From assembly GCA_018902385.1 (NCBI GenBank), contig JABSSW010000007.1, positions 62,001 to 126,000 on the forward strand: a stretch of DNA of 64,000 nucleotides, given 5' to 3'. The notes under the pieces were generated by a model. It made no database searches. It was not told the origin of the DNA and saw nothing but the letters and a program-made list of their open reading frames with translations. Below are positions 1-26,297 of this stretch, one piece after another. The stretch's first letter is position 1. The number at the start of each line of letters is the position of its first letter. The DNA comes from Physcia stellaris. Its lineage: Eukaryota; Ascomycota; Lecanoromycetes; Caliciales; Physciaceae. Made by a program: the position numbers and the translations under genes.

Positions 1-1211
1 CCATGCAGCTGCTTAAAATTGTGTAGATGAGGGAACGCTGAGAAGGTCATTATTCGAGAACACGGGCGGATCCTTCCCAGAACTAATAACTCGAGGCGAT
101 ATCAAGCTCTACCTTCCTCCGATTGGAGGCCTGACTGTTTACTGCTTTGGAGATCCAGCGAAAATGTCAGATGCCAATGTTCGCCTTGCACTTCGGGTGC
201 ATGATGAATGCAACGGAAGTGATGTATTTGGCTCTGATATATGTACATGTCGCCCGTACTTGATATGTACGTGTTCCTGGGGTCTTTCCTTTCCTTCATA
301 GATCTTCAGTTGATTTTCAACAACTATCATGGGAACGATCTACTCCAGACACTGCTCTTGTAGATGAACGCTTACCCGGCGATGGCAATGCTGACTCTGA
401 AATCACGAACAGTTGGTGTTGAAGAGGCAGTTAAAGAAGCCCAGCAAGGTGGAAGCGGTGTGGTCATATATTTCCGGAAAGAAGGTCGCGCTTTAGGCGA
501 GGTCACTAAGTACTTGGGTAAGCCTTTACTTATGCTCCGGCTTTACGCTCTAGTTGGTGCCATGAGCAATGTGCCCGTGGTCTATGTTGGAGATGTCTAA
601 AAATTCAATAAATATCCAAGGATGCATGCGCTGACTCAGTGTCATGAAAGTGTACAACGCACGGAAACGTGGCTCGGACCGGGCAAGCGAGTATTTTCAA
701 CGGACAGAAAACATTGCCGGAGTAAAAGACATGCGATTTCAAGCTCTCATGCCTGATGTCCTACACTGGCTTGGGATTACCAAAATCGATCGTATGCTGA
801 GGTTCGTATGTCTTTTCGCAGCGTTGTCTTCCGTAACTAGATTTGTTTTGGATCTTTAAGATATCTTGCAGGAAAGACTTCCTTAATCTGACTATGCTGA
901 CTCCGAAATCTCCTACAGCATGTCCAACATGAAACACGACGCAATCGTTGAACAAGGCATCCCGATTCATGAGCGAGTACCAATACCTGAGGAGCTTATA
1001 CCAGAGGATAGTCGGGTAGAGATAGATGCGAAAATCCATGCCGGATACTGTACATACTTTGCTCCTTAGCACAGCCAGAAATGCTAACGTCTGATTAGTC
1101 ACAACGGGAAAGGTCATGAATATAGCAGAGCTATCAGAGGTACGAGGTCGTGCATGGGAAGACGTCGATGTAAGTTTGATTAGACGTATTCATGTCAGAT
1201 ACAGCCACTGA
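1..1211 (+). CDS. URC1: Uracil catabolism protein Urc1 (GTP cyclohydrolase II-like), 5' partial
   Basis: Belongs to the GTP-cyclohydrolase-II-related Urc1 family, required for the fungal URC route of uracil degradation. The start lies upstream of the window. Exons worked out by hand: about 17-266, 413-517, 651-801, 919-1049 and 1099-1169 onward; all junctions are GT-AG and keep frame. Recognisable blocks are the RVHDECNGSDVFGSDICTC region (the degenerate cysteine cluster of the RibA fold), the YFRKEGRALGEVTKYL block and the RFQALMPDVLHWLGI block. The last exon encodes VRGRAWEDVD and then either reads through to a TGA at 1209-1211 or has one more small intron, so the final dozen residues are uncertain. 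Introns 1 (146 bp) and 2 (133 bp) are long for this window. Family assignment is firm; substrate is from family knowledge. Confidence 0.88.
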
Positions 1212-1919
1212 CAAAGATCGCACAGCACTGAAGTGCGGTGCCTATGCAGCCACCGTAATAAGTTGGCGCTGGCAGTTTGGCCAAATCATCATTCAATCAT
1301 GTCCATCATGCTGGAGTAATACCGAGGCCCACGGAGGAGGAAACGCTGAGCCGCTCGAGAAATGGTTGGCAGATAACATGCAAAGATCAGGGCAGGACTT
1401 CACAATCTTGATAATTGCCAATGGCAACTCCATTCGTTTGCTCTATCTTCCAATGAGAGACGAACCTTAGGTGCTTGAGCTTTCAAATCAGCTTTCTGTG
1501 TTCTGAAGTACAGTAGACATCCAACCATCTGTGGCCTGTAGTGTTGTTTGCAGGATTCCTCCTGCCTCGAGAGTGCTTTAGCTTTGCCATACTCTAGTAC
1601 GAAGTACACACCCAGAGAAAAACATAACCCTAGCCCTTCAAGGAGCGGCTACCGGGCCGGCTATTGTTCTGTATCAATCTCAAGGTACATGTACGTACTC
1701 AACATTGAGCTTAAGGTACTCAACCTTATCCTTCACTTTCTCAGTCATTTGGACGTGAGCAACTCTGCTGTTGGCTCTCGAATCACTTGTTGGGCCTTTA
1801 ACCGCCACCACCTCTATTGCTTCTCAAACTCTATGGACCTACAATGGTACTCTTGCCTCGGTCTTCCTATAGCTACGGAGACTTGAGGTACTATAACCCA
1901 GCCAGAATCTGAACGAGCT
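1212..1919. other. Intergenic, URC1 to BUR1
   Basis: Only short, unconvincing ORFs on both strands. Presumably holds the URC1 3' end and the BUR1 promoter and leader. Several GTAC-centred AGGTAC/GTACTC motifs occur around 1685-1725. No RNA gene or repeat seen. Confidence 0.5.
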
Positions 1920-3653
1920 ATGGCAAGCCCGGTGCAAATTGGAAGTGGTCAGTCGCCCACTAGCACCGCGTCAACGAGCAAAGGCCAAGCGGCAAGACGA
2001 TCCTTGGAAATGCTACCTAACGGACATCCCCGTTTCGGCGGCTGTTCGAGCATCAAGCGATATGACATCGTAAGCAAACTTGGAGAGGGTACTTTTGGGG
2101 AGGTATACAAGGCTATATCACTCAAGACCGGTCGAACCGTGGCTTTAAAGAAAATACTGATGCATCACGAGAAAGAGGGTTTTCCCATCACTGCGCTTCG
2201 GGAGATCAAGCTTTTGAAGCTACTGTCACACCCTAACATTCTCAAATTAGAGGAGGTGGCCGTTGAGCGTAAGAAGGAGGAAGCTCCTCGCCGGGCGATA
2301 CTGTACATGGTTACGCCCTACATGGACCACGATCTATCGGGATTACTCGAAAATCCTGCGGTGCGCTTCTCGGAACCCCAAATAAAATGCTACATGTTGC
2401 AGCTTTTGCAGGGACTTCATTTTCTGCATGCCAACAAGATCTTACATCGGGACATGAAAGCAGCCAACCTCCTTATCAATAACGAAGGAGTTCTACAGAT
2501 TGCGGATTTCGGGCTGGCCAGGCCATATGACGACCCTGCTCCGGAACCAGGGAGAGGGGGCGGCGAGGCCACGAGAGACTACACTACGATGGTTGTAACC
2601 CGATGGTACAGGCCTCCCGAGCTGTTGCTCCATCTACGACGGTACACAACCGCTGTCGACATGTGGGGCGTTGGTTGCGTATTTGGTGAGATGTTCAAAG
2701 GAAAGCCAATACTGATGGGAAACTCGGATTTGGATCAAGCGCAAAAGATCTTTACACTCGTTGGCTCGCCAACAGAAGACAACATGCCAGGCTGGAGCAA
2801 ACTCCCCGGTTGCGATGGTGTCACAGCGTTTGAGTCCAAACCAAACGCATTGCACCAAGTATTCCGTGAGCAAGGCTCTTCAGCAATATCTCTGTTAAGT
2901 GAGTTGTTGAAGCTTGATTGGCGGAAGCGCATCAACGCCATGGATGCAATCAAGCATCCCTACTTTACCAGCCCGCCCCTACCAGCGAAGCCATCCGATC
3001 TCCCTCGCTTCGAAGACTCCCACGAATTGGATCGAAGGAAATTTCGTGGTCAAAAAGCCCCACCACCCGCTCCAGCTGGCGGTACTGTAGGTATGGGCCC
3101 AAATGGCGACTTTACCCATGGTTTGGGAGCGTCGAATCAGCACCCGTCGGGGTATAGGGGGGGCAATTACTCTAATGGCCAGGCTCAATATGCTCCACGC
3201 CGCGATTATCATGAGGGGCGGCTTCCAAATCCACCAACATACGATCACAGGAATGTTCCCCCTCATGGCCCACCCCCTCATCGCCCTGCATGGGCTCGGG
3301 AGGTCAGCGGTCTGCCATCAGTACCCGGTCTGCCACCTAGACCACCAGGTCCACCTCCAGGTACGGTTAATTGGGGCGGACAAGGTAGAGCACCCATAGT
3401 TAGAGAAGATTCGAGAGGAGGGCCCTCCAACGGGACTCGGGATACTTACATTCCAAGTTATGCGGCCAATCGTGACAACCGTGACCGGATTTACCGTGGC
3501 CGGGACGGTGAGCAGAGGAACGACGACCGGGCAGATAGAGCACGTTATGATGACCGGAGGGAGCTTGGTTCCCGCGAGCCTGGAAGGTGGCGAAGCAGGA
3601 GCCCAGATCTCCACAGAGATAGGGATCGAAATCGCGAGTCTTACCGGCGATAG
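1920..3653 (+). CDS. BUR1: Cyclin-dependent kinase Bur1/CDK9-like (PtkA type)
   Basis: A single-exon gene of 577 aa. The kinase domain runs from about residue 48 to 345: glycine loop GEGTFGEV at 55-62, ATP lysine near K77, the PITALRE helix at 89-95 that names the CDK9/PITALRE family, HRD catalytic loop with D178, DFG with D196, and a T-loop [15 protein letters not shown] whose TT pair near 222-223 is the expected activating phosphosite. Residues from 350 to the end are a Pro/Gly/Arg/Asp-rich disordered tail ending in RD/RS repeats, typical of filamentous-fungal Bur1. The family phosphorylates the RNA polymerase II CTD and Spt5 with a partner cyclin during elongation, in the nucleus. The ATG at 1920 leaves a short 47-residue leader before the kinase. 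Confident assignment. Confidence 0.93.
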
Positions 3654-4010
3654 AAGGGATGGAAGCTATTCAGGGCAAAAGGGTTTTGGCGTTGCAAGTA
3701 GTATACGGGACACTTTCAATTAGCGAAGGAGTCGGCGCATATATCCCAGACTTTGGGCTGTGCAGACCCACTCATGGGCTTTTGGAAGGAGGTCGACATA
3801 GTCGGTGTCTGTTGACGGTGGATCACAACGTTTTCTGCGCGTGATACTCAATTGCATGAGCATCGGGCATATCGAGCAATTAATTCATAAGAGTCCCGCT
3901 AGATGAGAATCATGAAAATCTCCCCAATTTTCATCTTTCTCGACAAATTCTTCGAGTCTACCCACTTCAAGGTACCTTAGTGACTTATTAAGTATCTAAG
4001 TACTACATGT
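3654..4010. other. BUR1 3' flank and retrotransposon target region
   Basis: No gene seen. Contains AGGTACCTTAG-type motifs (about 3969-4016), a style of short palindromic AT/GC mix that recurs elsewhere in intergenic DNA here (for example 33917-33935). The retrotransposon inserted at the edge of this stretch. Confidence 0.5.
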
Positions 4011-4023
4011 ACCTTAGGGCCTG
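4011..4023. repeat. Left target-site duplication of the LINE (ACCTTAGGGCCTG)
   Basis: Identical 13/13 to 10381-10393 and placed exactly at the left boundary where the sequence changes to element DNA. Confidence 0.9.
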
Positions 4024-5243
4024 CCCTCCGGGTGGTTTACTGTGGCCTTTTGGGCGACGGTAGGCCCATGGATGATGGTGTTTTGATGACGCCCAATCGA
4101 GCACCACACGAGTCAATCGCATTACCTCTAGCGCAAGCACGAAGCTCCAAAAGTATTAATAATTCGTGAACTTTCGATTTTTGACTTTGATTATTTTTTG
4201 ATCGAATGTCTCTAGTTTCATCGTTGACACTTCGGGCGAACAAAATGTATGCGAAGACGTAACTGTCGAATGTTCGTTGAGTTTTTCTCAACATCAATGA
4301 GACGCATCGTTGAATTGACGATGTGCATTTTCTCATGCGATCGAGCGAGATCGAGACTCAACGAATTCGAAAAAAATCAAAGAGCTGAAATTCGTCAAAT
4401 GATATATTTTGAGAAACTTTTTTTCACACATGAACAGTACATCAAATATCATATTTTCGATTGCTCGTAAAGTTTTAAACATTATGACTAAAACTGATCA
4501 TGATGCGAATGATGATTTCGTTTTCGATATTGTTACAAATAACAAACAAACAATTGAAAATCATTCAAAATTTGCGAACGAACGTACGTCGATCAATAAC
4601 GACTTTTTTGAAAACGCGTTTGATCAAAAAATAAACAATAAAAAAATTCACAAAAAAATCAAAAATTTTGAAAATGAAAAAACGTCGAATATTTTGTTTT
4701 TTTTTTTTTTTTTATCATCATTTGATTTTTGAATTGATAAAATCGAAATTGCAAAGAAAATCAAGCAAACGAAAACGTTCCGAAAACAACTAAAAAAAAA
4801 CAAAAAACGGAAATCGCAAAAATCAGAAGAAAACAAACAAAAAAAAATATGACGACGAAACGATCTTTTTCGTCATAATGCAAATTTTGTTCGAAAATTC
4901 ATTGATCACAACAATGTTCGCAAAATCCGAACAACAAAAAAACAACAACATCGATTGTTTTCATTTCAGCATTTAAAACAGCAAAATCAGCTATTTTCAT
5001 TTCAGCGTTCGTCGATGATTTTTTTGTTTTCTTTTTTTTTGTCGAAATATACAGAAAAACGTCAAGCTTTTCAGTTTTCTCGTTTCAAAATATCATGAAA
5101 AAATCAGCGATCGACGAATCTGATTCATTTTCAAAAAATCGTCGTTTTCGCAAACAAAAATCAAAATTAAATTTTTCGAAAACTCAAACAAAAAATTTTC
5201 TATTATCAAATCAAAATTCAGCATCAATATCATTCAAATTTCG

Positions 5244-6029
5244 ATGCGATTCAAAAAAGCAAAAAACAAAAACAAAAACAAAATCAAAACGAAGAAAAAA
5301 GTCAAATTTCAATTTATCAAACGAATGAAACGACAACAAATTTTCGGCGAATTTCACAAACAATTTGCGACGAGATTTTTCGACGAAAAATTTTTTTATG
5401 TAAAGATTTCATCGTCATTTCGAAATAAAAACGTTTTAAATTTGTCAATCATGATTGACGTCTTTAAGAATTTCGAGTTTTTTACAAAAGCAAATCAGTT
5501 GATTGACGCTGTAATTCACGACAATCAAAAATGAAAATTAAAATGTGTCATTGAAAAAATTGTTAAAAAACATATTTTTAAAATATTCAAGTTAAACGAC
5601 GTAAAATGCGTTGTCAAAAAGTTTTTTGTTATTGATTTTCAAATTTATCGAATTCTCATGAAAGCACAAAACGTTCAACAACGAACGATTATTTGCAAAA
5701 ATTTTAGCGACTTCTGCAAGAACAAAAAATTCTGAATGAGTAACGATGAATACAACGACGTACGAAACGTTCAAATCGTTGTTGTATTCAAAAAAAGTTT
5801 CAACGCTCAAAAATTCGAAATATTAATCAAAAAAGCAATAAAAAGTCATCAAACATTTTTCGTCGCTAAATTTGAATTGACAAACGTTAACGACGACTGT
5901 CGAATATGCAACAACAAAACACGCGAAAAGCATTCGCTGTTGAATTGTTCAAATTTACGATCATATTTGACAAAAATTAAAAATGAAATATTTGATTTTG
6001 TTAAAAATCTTTCATTCGTCAAAGATTAA
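5244..6029 (+). pseudogene. LINE ORF1, Gag-like nucleic-acid-binding protein with zinc knuckle
   Basis: The reading frame ending with the TAA at 6027-6029 can be followed back to at least 5244, interrupted by TGA codons only. It holds a CCHC knuckle, C-X2-C-X7-H-X4-C, at 5898-5948, as expected for a LINE ORF1 that coats the RNA. The true 5' end is not visible: another Lys/Ser-rich frame (5095-5328) overlaps and could be part of the original N-terminus. Lys, Asn, Phe and Ile dominate the product because of the base bias. Confidence 0.6.
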
Positions 6030-9000
6030 TGTTTGCACAAAATTTTTTTGTGATTTCATTAAATGTTCGTTCCGCTTTTAATTCAGCTCGTTTTGAGCAG
6101 ATTTACAACATGATAATGAACATGAAAATGAACATTCTGTTAATGCAAAAAATCAACGTAACTGAAAAACTAATCGAGTATTATGAGAAACGTCATTCAT
6201 TGATAACAATTGTCATTAACAATATCGACAATCGAAACGTAATAATTATTCTCAATTTCAAAATTACTGTTTGAAACGAATTGAAAAATCTTTTTCATAT
6301 TTTGTACAGCGATTTCAGCGAAAAACTTTTGATTTGCTCGATTCAATATCAAAAAACAATATTGAATGTAAACTCGATTTACGTTTCGACGAAAACTGAA
6401 AAACGATTATCGTGACTTCATCGAGTCATTCAAAATATGAAAAATTCACTAATTGAATCATGCGATATCATCGACGAAAACTGAAATTTAACACTACAAA
6501 TCATGAACAGAATTTCGATGATTTCGTTTCGACTCGCACATATCGCAAAACTTCAACAATTATTAAATGTTTTGAGCAATGAATTCACTGATCTGATGAA
6601 TGAATGAAGAATTAGACATTTTGACGATAAAATCTTCATTTATTTTATCGAACTAAATAGAATTTTCATTTCAAGAATTGATCGAATTTACATTCGAAAA
6701 AATTGAATGAATAAAACGAAAAAATGAAAAATAGAATTTAGCGAATTATTTACGAATCACAAAATCACAACGATAATAATCAATTTCGCTATTCAGACGA
6801 ATCGAGAATCAAACAAATGAAAATTACAACTCAGTCTACTAATCAAATATCGCATTCGGCAAAAATGCTTAAAAATTCTGAAAATTCTTTTCGATAAAAA
6901 TTCATTGAATGAATGAATAATTTACAAAATTCAAATCGTCAAAATTCTCATCGATTTAAGCAAAATCTCGAAAAAGAAACGCTACAAACTTAAAGAAAGT
7001 TTAAAAAAACGAAAACTTTCATTTCAGAAACAACGTCGACGAAACGTTCGACTGAACAAAATCGCGAAAAACAAAACATTGAAAAAATTGATTACAACGA
7101 TGAAAATTCGAAAAAAACACTTAATTGAAATAACACACTTGAAATATTTTTACACAATCATGATCAAACATTTCATTTTCAACGAAAAATTCATCAAATG
7201 ATTTTTTGTTAAAATTAAAGAATGAACGAACTGCATCATTTCAACGTTTCTAAACGAAAACGAAATTGAACAAAATAAATCGCTAACTCAAACAAGCATA
7301 GTCACAAAATATTATCAGATTTTATACTCATTTAAAAATTCTGAACAAGCAATCAACGACGAAATGTTGTCAATCATGACGAAAAATATTTCAAAAAAAC
7401 ATGTTTGCAAACTAATCAATTCTATTAAATTCAAAAAAATTGATGCATTCATATTTCGATCGACTCTGAAAAAATCGCTCGAAATCGATAATTTCTCTTG
7501 CGAATTTAATAAAAATTTACTAAAGCATATTTTTGAATCGAAAAATCGACATAAAGCGATTTACATAAAGCAAAATTTCACAACATTTTTTTGCGCATTT
7601 CAAATTTCAAACAATTTATCGAATGATTGAACAAACGAAATGCTAATCATTCTGTACAAAAACAAAAAAGAACAAAACGATTTGAAAAACTATAAACTTC
7701 TATTCATAATGAACACGAATTACAAACTATTCACGAAAATATTGATGCAACGACTCGTCATAACATTAAACGAAATCATTGACAAACATCAATTTGCTTT
7801 TTTATTCAAACGACTAATAAACGACAACATCAAAATCATACAAAATCTCGTAACAAGATTTGACGATTCAAGTACGAAAAAATTAACGATAATTTTTCTA
7901 AATCAAAAAAAAGTCTACGATAAAATCAGTCACATCTTTCTACGAAAAGCTTTGAAAAAACTGAAAATCTTCGCGAAATACATTCGTTGAATAATGTTGT
8001 TATACAAAGACGTCAAAATTCGAATCATGATCAACGATCACATGAATCAAGTTCTGAAAATGTTGTCAAACGTCAAACAAAACGATTCTTTAAATTGTTC
8101 GCTATTCATCGCGAAAATCGAATGTTTAACAACGTACATCAATCAATGCTCAGACATACAAAAAGTAAAAATTGATGATGAAATATTAAAGTTGATAATG
8201 TATGTTGATGACACAGCGATATTTGTACGTAATCAAGTCGAAATCGACAAATTAATGAAAATATTCGAACTTTACGATAAAATCATCGACGCAAAAATCA
8301 ATTGAAACAAAACAAAAATACTACTTTTGAATAACGTTTTTAACATACAGATATCAATGATCAAATCAATCACGAAAAAAAATTTCTATAATCATTTAAA
8401 CATTCCGATTGATACACATCTGGACATGACGTTAAACAAATTTTGACAAAACATTTTTCAAAAAACAAAAAGAATTCGAAATACGTGATTTCGCTTTCAC
8501 ATGTCGATGCGTGAAAAAATAATGATAGCAAACTTTTGTATAATGTCTCGAATAAAATACGCAGTAAGATTTTTAGAAATGCTCAAAAATATTCGAAAAG
8601 CAATCAATACAAAATATTATTCGTTAATATGAAACAACAAACGATTGAAAACAATTTTCGATCTTCATGTTTGCTGTTTCGTCAATGAGAAAAACGTAAA
8701 CGTTCATGATTTACGATTCATCATTGAAAACTCAATAATATTCATGATAATCAAATTTCTGACTCGTTCGAAACTCTTCTGAATCAAACTCTGAAAAAAT
8801 GTCTTGATTCAACACGTCAGAACAGATCAAATGAATGTCATAATCTCAACATTAATCAATTTCTGAATGCAACGATACATCAATCAATGAAGCGTTTTTT
8901 TTCAATTCATCAAACATTTTCACAATCATTGACAAAAACTTAAAAACGTCAATTTAATTTTCATTCATTTTTCGAATCACATTCACGAACTCATGCAATT

Positions 9001-10111
9001 CAACTTTTGATATCACTCAAACGTCGACAAGAACGATAACGAAAATTTCAAGAAATTCAACTCGAATATCTGAAAACATCTATGAAACGCAAACGTTTGT
9101 CAATTGAAAAACATCTGAAATTCAGTTCGAAACGAATCGATAATATCACTCAACGTGAATCAATCACGCGTTAAAGTAAGAAACGTCATTCGACGATTCA
9201 TATCTAGCGACATTTCGAAAGTTTGAAAATCATTTTTTAATAATTTTCGTTATATTTTTGATTTAGATTTTTCAATCGATCAAAAGTACTTCATACAAAT
9301 CGGAAAATTCGAAATTCTACTGAAAAACATGAGCTTCAAAATAACGTATTTGAAATTGAAAGCGATAAAATTGAAAAAAATAAACTACAATGAACGTGCT
9401 GTAAATTTTATTCTGATTTATCAATCGATGTTCGAAACGAAAATAAACGTCCAAATGCTGTGAATCGCAAATAAATTCGAAATATCGAAAATAAATGATT
9501 TAACATGACGTTTTTTTCATCGACAAATAACGATCGATATTGAATTGAATTGAATTTCTATATCACAACAATTGTGTTCTATATATCACATCAATTAATT
9601 TTCGTCTCATATTTGATTTGAATGTACAGTAATCGACGTCGTTTGAATCGAATTTCGTCAAATTTGAAAACGTCTTGATCACTATAAGTTTTCCGAATTC
9701 GAAACTATGATTCAATTGATGACATTGCTGATCGTGAATTCATTTTTCATCGTCGAACAACGAACGTTACGACGAAAATGAAATATTTTGTTTCTCATGA
9801 CGATGTGAATCTTGTGAAAAACATATTTAACTCACAACTTTAACGAATCAATCAAACTGTGAAGCGTGAACGAAACAATTGATCTTTATCGAAACATGAT
9901 TAAAAAACACATCTCAACAAATCGCATTTTGTGTCTGTACGAAAAATATCGTAACAAAAAGTACAATTCGAAGATTTTCGAAAATTTATGAAACGAATCG
10001 CTCAAAAAATATAAAATTAAATTGAAATTCAAATGTCTGAAACAAAAATCTGATCTCATCGAAAATTATTCGGAAAAAATCATTGCGAATGAGTGTTCGA
10101 ACAACGACTAA
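6029..10111 (+). pseudogene. LINE ORF2, endonuclease-reverse transcriptase
   Basis: One frame runs 1361 codons from the ATG at 6029, which overlaps the ORF1 stop (TAATG), to a TAA at 10109-10111. By eye there are about 37 in-frame TGA codons, one TAA and no TAG. TGA sits where a Trp is expected for the family, for example just after the RT motif ending FAKYIR. Domains in order: endonuclease (6029 to about 6700), a linker, RT (about 7620-8400; NDLKNYKLL, motif A around FLNQKKVYDK, YVDD near 8200) and a Cys/His C-terminal region (about 9480-9650). Gly and Pro codons number about one each in the whole frame. The copy is dead; the original product is known only by family resemblance. Confidence 0.85.
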
Positions 10112-10380
10112 CGACAAAATATTTAAAAATCGTGATGTTTTTGAGATTTCTTTCTTGTTTAGCGTATTAGATGTTTTGATGTGAAAAATGAAAACACGAT
10201 GAAATAAATCCGAGCGAAATTTTTCAAATTCTCGACGTCGAAACTCTTCGAAATAATATGAACGAAATGTTTTCATAAATTCGATTCTTTGTAGAGCTTG
10301 CTGAAGCAAATCACCTCGTACTATGTAACTAGCTAGTATAGGTTAGTTAGATAGTTCACAAAATAAAAACTATCAACGCC

Positions 10381-10393
10381 ACCTTAGGGCCTG
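10381..10393. repeat. Right target-site duplication of the LINE (ACCTTAGGGCCTG)
   Basis: Identical to 4011-4023. Its perfect identity argues that the insertion is not ancient even though the interior is saturated with mutations. Confidence 0.9.
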
Positions 10394-24024: not shown

Positions 24025-25182
24025 TTAGACCTCGTGTCTGTTCAGGAGCTCGTACTCCTTCTGGCTGTGTCTTCTCCAGAAGGGGGGCATCTGTCTCCAG
24101 GGCACCTTCCCGCCTTTCCTTTGACCCAGTAGCAGCACTCTCCCGTACACCCACCAGAGACCCATACCGACAACTGCAGCTGCGAGGAAGCCGCCAGCTG
24201 TCAGCAGCATCCAATTCCTGCCCATCCAAAAGATAAAGCGAGCGTCCTTCCCGTGCCAACTGTTACCCCTGTGATGGCTGAAGAAGCTCCAAGCATGCCG
24301 GTTGTACTCGTCTTGCATTAAGATTCTCACCCGTCCACCAGAGATTCCGTCACCCACATCGGCACCGGATGCCATATACTTTTTCCAGATCACCGAGAGG
24401 AAAAGGGGCCCGGTGCTGTACATGACGGTTATGTAGGGGAGAGCCCAGTCGCGGTTGTATTCACGGAGAGATTCGATAACAAGAAGGAAGAAAGGGTGGC
24501 CGGGTATAGCGCCCATGGCATCGTTCGAGATCCCTGTGGGAGCAGTCTTACGTACCCATGAAGGGTATGAGAGGAGAGGGTCGAGGCGGCGGTTACAGCC
24601 CTTGGAAGGATATCAGCCAAAAGCCCCTCCAAAAAACTTGCCGAAATTTGGACCGCAGAAGAGACTCACATCGTCGAGGTCTATGTAGGTACCACCATAA
24701 TGTGCCAGGACAAAATACCGAATCGCGTCAGCCCGCTGTATGGGGTGTGTGTAGTTATCAAAGGTGGTTAGAAACCAGGGGTATTCAGTCGCAATCAGTT
24801 CGCGTGACTTTGCGTCAGTCCAGAGCTAAATCCAATCTCGAGTCAGCCAAACCTTAAGTAATGCCAATTGATATTCCTCAGCGGCCGAGCGGTTGATGCC
24901 TACCTTGTACTCGTAATCTTCATGGAGGTCGATGCAGCTCGACTGCGCCTCTCTCCAATGCTCTGGTACACTTTCATTGATGTATGTCTGGTGTATTATC
25001 TTGGGTATCAGTTGTGGCAGGCTGTCTATGAGGGGCGAGTTCGGCGCAGGAATCTCGGCGCTGTGGATGGCGTCTGTCGAACCGTCCTCGATGAGAAGAG
25101 TGAGGAGGGTGAAGACGCTATGGACGAGGAAGGTGACGATGAGGGCGTTTATGAAGAGGAAGATGGCGAGACCGCGACGCAT
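24025..25182 (-). CDS. SUR1: Mannosyl-inositol-phosphorylceramide synthase catalytic subunit, Sur1/Csg1-like
   Basis: Three exons (25182-24904, 24825-24670, 24600-24025) give 336 aa. The ATG at 25182 places MRRGLAIFLF at the N-terminus, and a signal-anchor helix follows (LFINALIVTFLVHSVFTLLTL). Next are IPKIIHQTY and a DXD-type sugar-nucleotide site, GGTYIDLDDGCNRRLDPLL, the hallmarks of the Och1/Sur1 (GT32) glycosyltransferases. A second hydrophobic segment (LLTAGGFLAAAVVGMGLWWVYG) near the C-terminus matches the two-span layout of Sur1/Csh1. The family transfers mannose to inositol-phosphorylceramide in the Golgi, with the Csg2 subunit. All key residues are present. Confidence 0.85.
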
Positions 25183-26297
25183 GGTTGCGGTGCTTTGTTC
25201 GAGCAGTGCCAATCAGGTTGAGCGCGTTTAAGGTTGCTGTGACGGAATTCAGATGGCCGAAGCCACAGTCTACGGTAGAGGAGGCTTGCTCGAATCGCTC
25301 ATAACATTATGTAGATCTGGTAAGAGTAAAGTATGGGAAAATTAAGCGGCAGCAATGACTGTCTCGTGATGAATGGTCGATTAAGCCAAATTATAGTGAC
25401 ACAGAAACCGATTAAAACTGAATAGAATGGAGATTTCCGAGAGCAGGGTGGGATGGTGGAAGGAGCAATGAGCGTGCAGAAATCAATTGAGCCCGTGTGG
25501 GAAAAGAATAGAAGCAGCTGAAGGAGAGGAGGTTGCGAAGACGTTGTTCCGTAGATCGCAAAGCGGTGCGAGATTAACCTATTTGGCACTTCCCAGACCC
25601 GGGGAGGCAGCAGACCAGTGAGAGCAGCGGATGCGTGTTTCGCCGGGCCGCCAAGAGATGCCAAGCGTGGCTCAAGCGGTCGAGACAAGTCGTCAGACTC
25701 ACTAGGGACAACTCGCCTGTTTGGTCTGTTTGGTCTGACTGATAATTGGCTTGAATCGTGATTCGTGAAAAGGGCTGATGCGGCTAGAGGGGCTTGATGT
25801 GCGTCGAGTGTGGACCCTGACATGAGCCCCTCGAGAAGTTGAGAACCCTTGGATTTAACCGCTTGCGGTAAGCGGCGCCAAGCAGTTTGCGGGGAATTTG
25901 TCCAAATCTTCAAAGGTGCAGTACGTACTACCTTACTACTTTACTTAGTAGGCCACGCAAGCCTCGAGTAATGTAATAATGGAGTAATGTTCGACTATAA
26001 GCACCCTTATGTACGTAATAAGACTCGGTGAAAGATTCTATTGATGCCGTGTCAATAAGCACCAACACCCTTCTGGCCGTTGTGGGAACATACGACCATA
26101 GTACCGTATCGCTCAACCCATAGCCAGCCCCAATCCTATGTGTATATGCAATGCAGTCCATGGCGCCCACGACACAATGCTACGCTTTAGCATATAACCC
26201 TCGCCGAAGCGTCCCCATTCGCCATCCTAGATCTATCCAGACTCCGGGGTTGGTTGCACCTACCGACGACTACCGTCTATAGAATTTAGACTCGTTA
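25183..26297. other. Intergenic
   Basis: About 1.1 kb: promoter and leader of the mannosyltransferase and 3' flank of the PH-LRR gene. A 204-codon minus-strand ORF at 25299-25913 is judged spurious (see rejected items). GTAC/TACTA-rich motifs lie near 25920-25950. Confidence 0.5.

Follow-up and report, generated by a model that had tools for sequence, protein, structure and literature searches.

A non-LTR retrotransposon (long interspersed nuclear element, LINE) lies in a stretch of 64,000 nucleotides from Physcia stellaris (contig JABSSW010000007.1, positions 62,001 to 126,000; hereafter the window). Very probably, this LINE was hypermutated by a genome defence of the repeat-induced point mutation (RIP) type that targets CpC and CpT in this filamentous ascomycete. 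The substitutions are of the C:G to T:A type, follow a rule set by the 3' neighbour of the cytosine, occur on both strands and come close to saturation in some copies. The same scar is spread over many retroelements and one ribosomal DNA (rDNA) copy of the genome, and in the window it is confined to the element.

Loss of C before pyrimidine in the LINE

The second open reading frame (ORF2) of the element, 4083 nt or 1361 codons long, contains 37 in-frame TGA and two TAA codons (one internal and one terminal), with neither TAG nor TGG; one GGN codon (GGA) and one CCN codon (CCG) are left, next to 49 CAA and 5 CAG. The other two frames of the same strand hold 138 and 76 stops. The recount agrees with the first-pass annotation, in which about 37 TGA, a single TAA (the internal one), no TAG and no TGG over 1361 codons had been reported, together with about one Gly and one Pro codon and abundant CAA and CAG. 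At the dinucleotide level, CC and GG occur four times each in ORF2 (observed/expected ratios of 0.04 and 0.07), and the corresponding ratios are 2.63 for CG, 1.13 for CA, 1.40 for TG and 0.45 for TA. Over positions 4240-10313, CC and GG total 13, whereas base composition predicts 244 (Poisson p ~ 2e-85). Target sites, i.e., C before a pyrimidine (CpY) and its complement RG, have a density of 50.5 per kb there versus 236 per kb in the 500 bp on each side.

The single-copy flank of the LINE is spared. Observed/expected ratios of CC and GG are 0.95 and 0.89 at 10301-64000, and 0.98 and 1.07 at 1-4249. When a 300-bp window was called scarred at a GC content < 0.38 and CC+GG <= 3, 20 of the 213 windows qualified, all within 4201-10200. 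The ends of the LINE retain many target sites (the first ~ 130 bp on the left and the last ~ 75 bp on the right).

These data raise a key question: was the LINE mutated, or is TGA read as Trp under a reassigned code, or was the element AT-rich ancestrally? The last two possibilities can draw on an ORF2 frame that is open except for TGA and one internal TAA. The answer was provided by contig C37, which carries L037, an un-mutated ~ 1-kb 3' piece of the same LINE; L037 was aligned with the window LINE over 1,017 columns. In this alignment, 205 of the 216 substitutions are C:G to T:A, and their tabulation by 3' neighbour gave C-to-T changes at 121/136 CC sites (0.89), 77/125 CT sites (0.62), 4/122 CA sites (0.03) and 3/120 CG sites (0.03). 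Both strands were changed (113/134 and 85/127 CpY sites), which bears out the earlier interpretation as C-to-T before a pyrimidine or, on the other strand, G-to-A after a purine. Among the 246 codons compared, all 11 TGA of the LINE are TGG in L037, and all 14 Gly and 17 Pro codons of L037 are changed in the LINE. Moreover, Trp is present in the longer host ORFs of the window when these are translated with TGG as the only Trp codon. Code reassignment and ancestral AT-richness are thus rejected by the un-mutated relative, and we assign them next to no probability; as had been supposed in the first-pass annotation, neither the TGA codons nor the loss of GG and CC is ancestral.

The internal TAA of ORF2 stands opposite a glutamine codon in L037, which indicates that a rare CpA change also happened. 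The remaining 11 substitutions (~ 1% of positions) correspond to ordinary divergence, and since this divergence is so small, the LINE was probably young when it was mutated. Three further 3' pieces were compared with L037. The piece on C22 shows no context rule (CC 4/52, CT 6/57, CA 4/38, CG 5/44), the piece on C31 shows a weak one (CC 12/29, CT 6/34, CA 4/24, CG 2/26), and the piece on C62 shows no change.

The coordinates of the element and its parts are presented in Table 1. Its membership in the LINEs is indicated by the target-site duplication and by ORF2: the translated piece 6029-9595 (TGA read as Trp) matches LINE-1 ORF2p over residues 112-874 (8sxt, E 4.8e-26), with no Pfam family at E <= 1. 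The element had been recognized as a LINE in the first-pass annotation, and this identification stands; its extent was underestimated, as the target-site duplication bounds a larger element. The terminal TAA of the ORF1 region overlaps the ATG of ORF2, and a Cys/His-rich stretch was seen by eye near its C-terminus; a Pfam search with the ORF1 piece 5163-6026 gave no match. Elsewhere in the window, positions 25001-26000 have a GC skew of 0.265, the largest among its 1-kb windows.

Table 1 Features of the LINE and its scar in the window
Feature	Position	Strand	Remarks
Whole non-LTR (LINE) retrotransposon	4024..10380	+	bounded by target-site duplication; ORF1 region and ORF2
Target-site duplication, left copy, 13 bp	4011..4023	.	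exact match to 10381-10393
Target-site duplication, right copy, 13 bp	10381..10393	.	exact match to 4011-4023
ORF1 region, open part with TGA read as Trp	4977..6029, start approximate	+	
ORF2 (endonuclease/reverse-transcriptase protein)	6029..10111	+	37 TGA, one internal TAA
Tract stripped of C before pyrimidine	4150..10305, approximate ends	.	density of CY+RG sites, scarcity of CC/GG

The scar in other repeats of the genome

To what extent is the scar shared by other elements? A search of the genome (44.0 Mb in 147 contigs) for the RVT_1 domain yielded 527 candidates, of which 150 matches were scored. Their internal stops comprise 250 TGA, 33 TAA and 3 TAG; 112 of the matches hold TGA only, and 10 lack internal stops. 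Among the 30 best-scoring reverse transcriptase (RT) loci, 23 have a GC content < 0.31 together with an observed/expected ratio of CC and GG <= 0.25, many of them with CC/GG at 0.00 and with CT/AG as low as 0.01. Of the other seven, L011 is intermediate, and L006-L009, L020 and L034 are normal.

With the un-mutated L006 as reference, the best alignments of 11 scarred copies of its family (one for each) gave C-to-T fractions of 4204/4305 at CC, 3925/4548 at CT, 302/4324 at CA and 135/3999 at CG. The CA and CG counts are in part due to sites common to most copies, which are probably older differences. The 5' neighbour matters little, with the changed CpY fraction lying between 0.90 and 0.95. In L023, the copy closest to L006, 918 C:G to T:A changes are found versus 2 other substitutions and 13 gap positions; 889 of the 902 CpY sites are changed and none of the 409 CpG sites. 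Seven of the 13 unchanged CpY sites of L023 cluster within ~ 95 bp (L006 positions 1776-1868), as if this segment had been briefly protected.

The excess of context-dependent transitions in L023 indicates that the change was a burst. This has a direct bearing on slow decay, in which heterochromatic methylation of the DIM-2 type at CpC and CpT would be followed by spontaneous mitotic deamination, with no homology recognition involved. A DIM-2-like gene is present in the genome, and in Zymoseptoria Dim2 promotes mitotic C-to-T mutation, at CpA (PMC8016269). However, background decay appears much too slow to yield 918 transitions versus 2 other changes, CpG was left wholly untouched in the same copy, and the scar in the window stays inside the element with its flanks unaffected. 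We consider slow decay unlikely.

One additional piece of evidence was provided by a scarred rDNA stretch, L038 (C41:45899-46052 and flanks), which includes the end of the small subunit (SSU) gene, 5.8S and the start of the large subunit (LSU) gene and is the only 5.8S match among 39 scored of 2644 candidates. It was compared with the conserved (upper-case) columns of Rfam. C-to-T changes were found in 5.8S at CC 2/2, CT 3/4, CA 0/6 and CG 0/10, and in LSU at CC 15/17, CT 9/23, CA 0/12 and CG 0/14, with one other difference in 240 columns; the LSU count covers six of eight blocks, as conserved columns are lacking in two. Pooled, CpY was changed at 29/46 sites and C before a purine at 0/42. When all 154 columns of 5.8S were taken, including variable ones, the fractions were CC 13/15, CT 8/12, CA 0/21 and CG 5/26, with 11 other differences. 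As for the affinity of the host, the PDB chains nearest to a 225-residue piece of its ribosomal protein L3 are ones that we take to be from Neurospora crassa and Chaetomium thermophilum, which indicates no more than a filamentous ascomycete.

The rDNA copy also weighs on another explanation, namely that an APOBEC-like cytidine deaminase edited the cDNA or R-loops of retroelements. Such editing would agree with C:G to T:A as nearly the sole change and with retroelements making up most of the loci examined, although the latter is so because retroelements were searched for. The two strands of the LINE were changed similarly, however, and the rule follows the 3' neighbour, whereas APOBEC enzymes read the 5' side. 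Given this strand symmetry, the 3' rule and the scarred rDNA, we rejected APOBEC-like editing, which we regard as very improbable.

The abundance of the scar was estimated from 16 sampled sites of 1.5 kb, of which five were wholly and one partly scarred (27/80 300-bp windows); with one site per chosen contig, short contigs are over-represented in this sample. Among the 13 contigs longer than 250 kb, 12/65 sampled windows were scarred, and in the 6-kb stretch L039, 0/20 were. To the left of the un-mutated L006, five of seven windows of L040 (C52:251501-253840) are scarred, and L006 may lie within scarred DNA older than itself.

Target rule and candidate enzymes

The alignments also allowed the relative rates at the target sites to be compared. 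Expressed as -ln(1-p), the CC to CT ratio is 1.4 to 2.4 in the L006 family and 2.3 in the window LINE, and the relative rates from the alignment counts are ~ 2 for CC, 1 for CT, ~ 0.04 for CA and ~ 0.02-0.03 for CG, those for CA and CG being upper bounds. CCC before a purine occurs 201 times in the 11 copies of the L006 family, which are related, so that these cases are not independent; the outcomes were TTC (172), CTC (14), TTT (11), TCT (2), TCC (1) and ATC (1). This pattern would arise if the middle C were converted before the first one, which then stood in the slower CT context; the dominance of TTC suggests stepwise reading of the sequence by the machinery. The few CpA changes in L023 favour a pyrimidine at position +2 (CAY 21/186, CAR 5/258; Fisher p 5e-5).

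A search for DNA_methylase revealed three cytosine-5 methyltransferase genes, none of whose loci carries the scar. L003 is DIM-2-like (E 4e-180 to 9bap_A, annotated as DNA cytosine-5 methyltransferase, which we take to be Neurospora DIM-2). L004 and L002 are 40% identical over 174 catalytic residues, and both have a PPCQ motif; the scanned pieces gave no match to BAH. As judged by eye, L002 extends across apparent introns as far as a C-terminal IGNAVPP motif. By resemblance, we presume both to be of the RID/Masc1 type.

The proposed mechanism is as follows. A machinery acting on both strands of repeated DNA would convert C to T ahead of a pyrimidine, nearly to completion at CpC and CpT, with CpA and CpG staying as they are. 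Such a rule turns TGG into TGA and not TAG, lets CAA and CAG mostly survive, removes GGN and CCN codons and makes CpG seem over-represented. The trigger would be DNA homology in the sexual cycle, before meiosis, and a cytosine-5 methyltransferase, either RID/Masc1-like or DIM-2-like, would choose the sites; a shift in the target preference of such an enzyme could explain the CpY rule. In its most specific form, this reading is RIP with an enzyme that recognizes the 3' pyrimidine, a near-inverse of the CpA rule, and that proceeds stepwise and, in the most heavily affected copies, rapidly converted > 98% of CpY in a single short burst; we lean towards this form. A duplicated and re-targeted gene of the RID/Masc1 type, of which the genome has two putative members, would then be the prime suspect.

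How well does RIP account for these data? Its hallmarks were observed: nearly exclusive C:G to T:A changes, both strands affected, and repeats mutated with the flank spared. Several points weigh against it. The CpA preference, usual in RIP and not universal, is clearly broken both in the LINE and in the L006 family, where CA sites changed so rarely versus CC, and the preference for CpA described as shared by RIP-like systems (PMC12543289) is not seen here. DNA and protein searches of the assembly, in which only the best candidates were scored, turned up no full-length partner of the window LINE; they gave only 3' pieces, on C37, C22, C31 and C62. Ten pairs with diverged references (L020, L007, L008) show a weaker contrast (CC 0.44-0.82, CT 0.44-0.71, CA 0.20-0.27, CG 0.12-0.22), as is expected because ordinary divergence is large there. 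Finally, un-scarred repeats remain (L006-L009, L020, L034 and the ~ 1-kb L037), which indicates that the defence is incomplete or that such copies are recent. L007 (C5) and L008 (C12), un-scarred elements that are 95% identical, would be repeats of this kind; L007 carries domains of RT and RNase H together with an integrase zinc-binding domain, and the C/T differences between the two follow no strong rule (38, 36, 26 and 21 before C, T, A and G, respectively).

Comparison with known RIP-like systems

A survey of 1,239 fungal genomes reports a CpA preference shared by RIP-like defences and, in some ascomycete clades, evidence for undescribed RIP mechanisms (PMC12543289). The P. stellaris genome breaks the shared rule on a large scale, which means that the target preference of RIP can turn over almost completely. 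By the thresholds in use for the standard indices (TpA/ApT > 1.15, substrate <= 0.75, composite > 0; PMC7882544), the window LINE (0.44, 1.33 and -0.89, respectively) and all seven other scarred loci scored are RIP-negative on all three. Thus, scarred repeats of the CpY type can be missed in surveys based on TpA and CpA indices. What determines the dinucleotide preference of RIP could become apparent if the methyltransferases found here were compared with their counterparts in CpA-type species. In the portions of the open-licence literature covered, we found no description of CpC-led repeat mutation with CpA and CpG spared, and a precedent elsewhere is possible.

CpA is the target reported for Mycosphaerella (PMC4522978), Leptosphaeria (PMC2973834) and the internal transcribed spacer (ITS) of Ophiocordyceps (PMC7493409), and, in several ascomycetes, for rRNA pseudogenes, those of Neurospora crassa showing more CpT (PMC5555474). 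CpT and CpC components are known as well. In RIPCAL alignments, those of N. crassa Tad1 among others, CpT to TpT stands out (PMC2621366, PMC7882544); in Stagonospora repeats, CpC is depleted in addition to CpA (PMC2621366); and Monilinia combines CpA with CpC to TpT double changes (PMC8959702). Rhizoctonia solani AG8 has a CpG bias, with CpC as the densest class of C/T single-nucleotide polymorphisms (SNPs) in one table, and its SNPs are differences between nuclei that occur in genes and repeats alike (PMC4014442). In all of these systems, unlike here, CpA or CpG is also changed or is the main bias.

The context-specific C-to-T mutation of transposons in the basidiomycete Microbotryum resembles the present case in that its context is other than CpA; its target, however, is TpCpG, with a mean of 1.7 of 35 target sites changed per copy (PMC5381629), whereas in L023 CpG was spared and 889 of 902 CpY sites were changed. 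Zymoseptoria tritici shares the repeat-biased C-to-T change, there linked to the DIM-2 methyltransferase; the target is CpA, with CpT hardly methylated (PMC8016269), and here it is CpY. RIP in Trichoderma reesei also produces C-to-T changes in duplicated DNA, with CpA ~ CpG and CpT > CpC (PMC5496416), whereas here CpC comes first and CpG last. Likeness also exists with the RID- and DIM-2-dependent RIP of Neurospora: only C:G to T:A changes, on both strands, repeats changed and flanks spared, and methyltransferase genes presumed, by resemblance, to be of both kinds. The order of preference differs, being CpA > CpT > CpG > CpC in N. crassa (PMC5496416) and CpC > CpT >> CpA > CpG, close to saturation, in P. 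stellaris.

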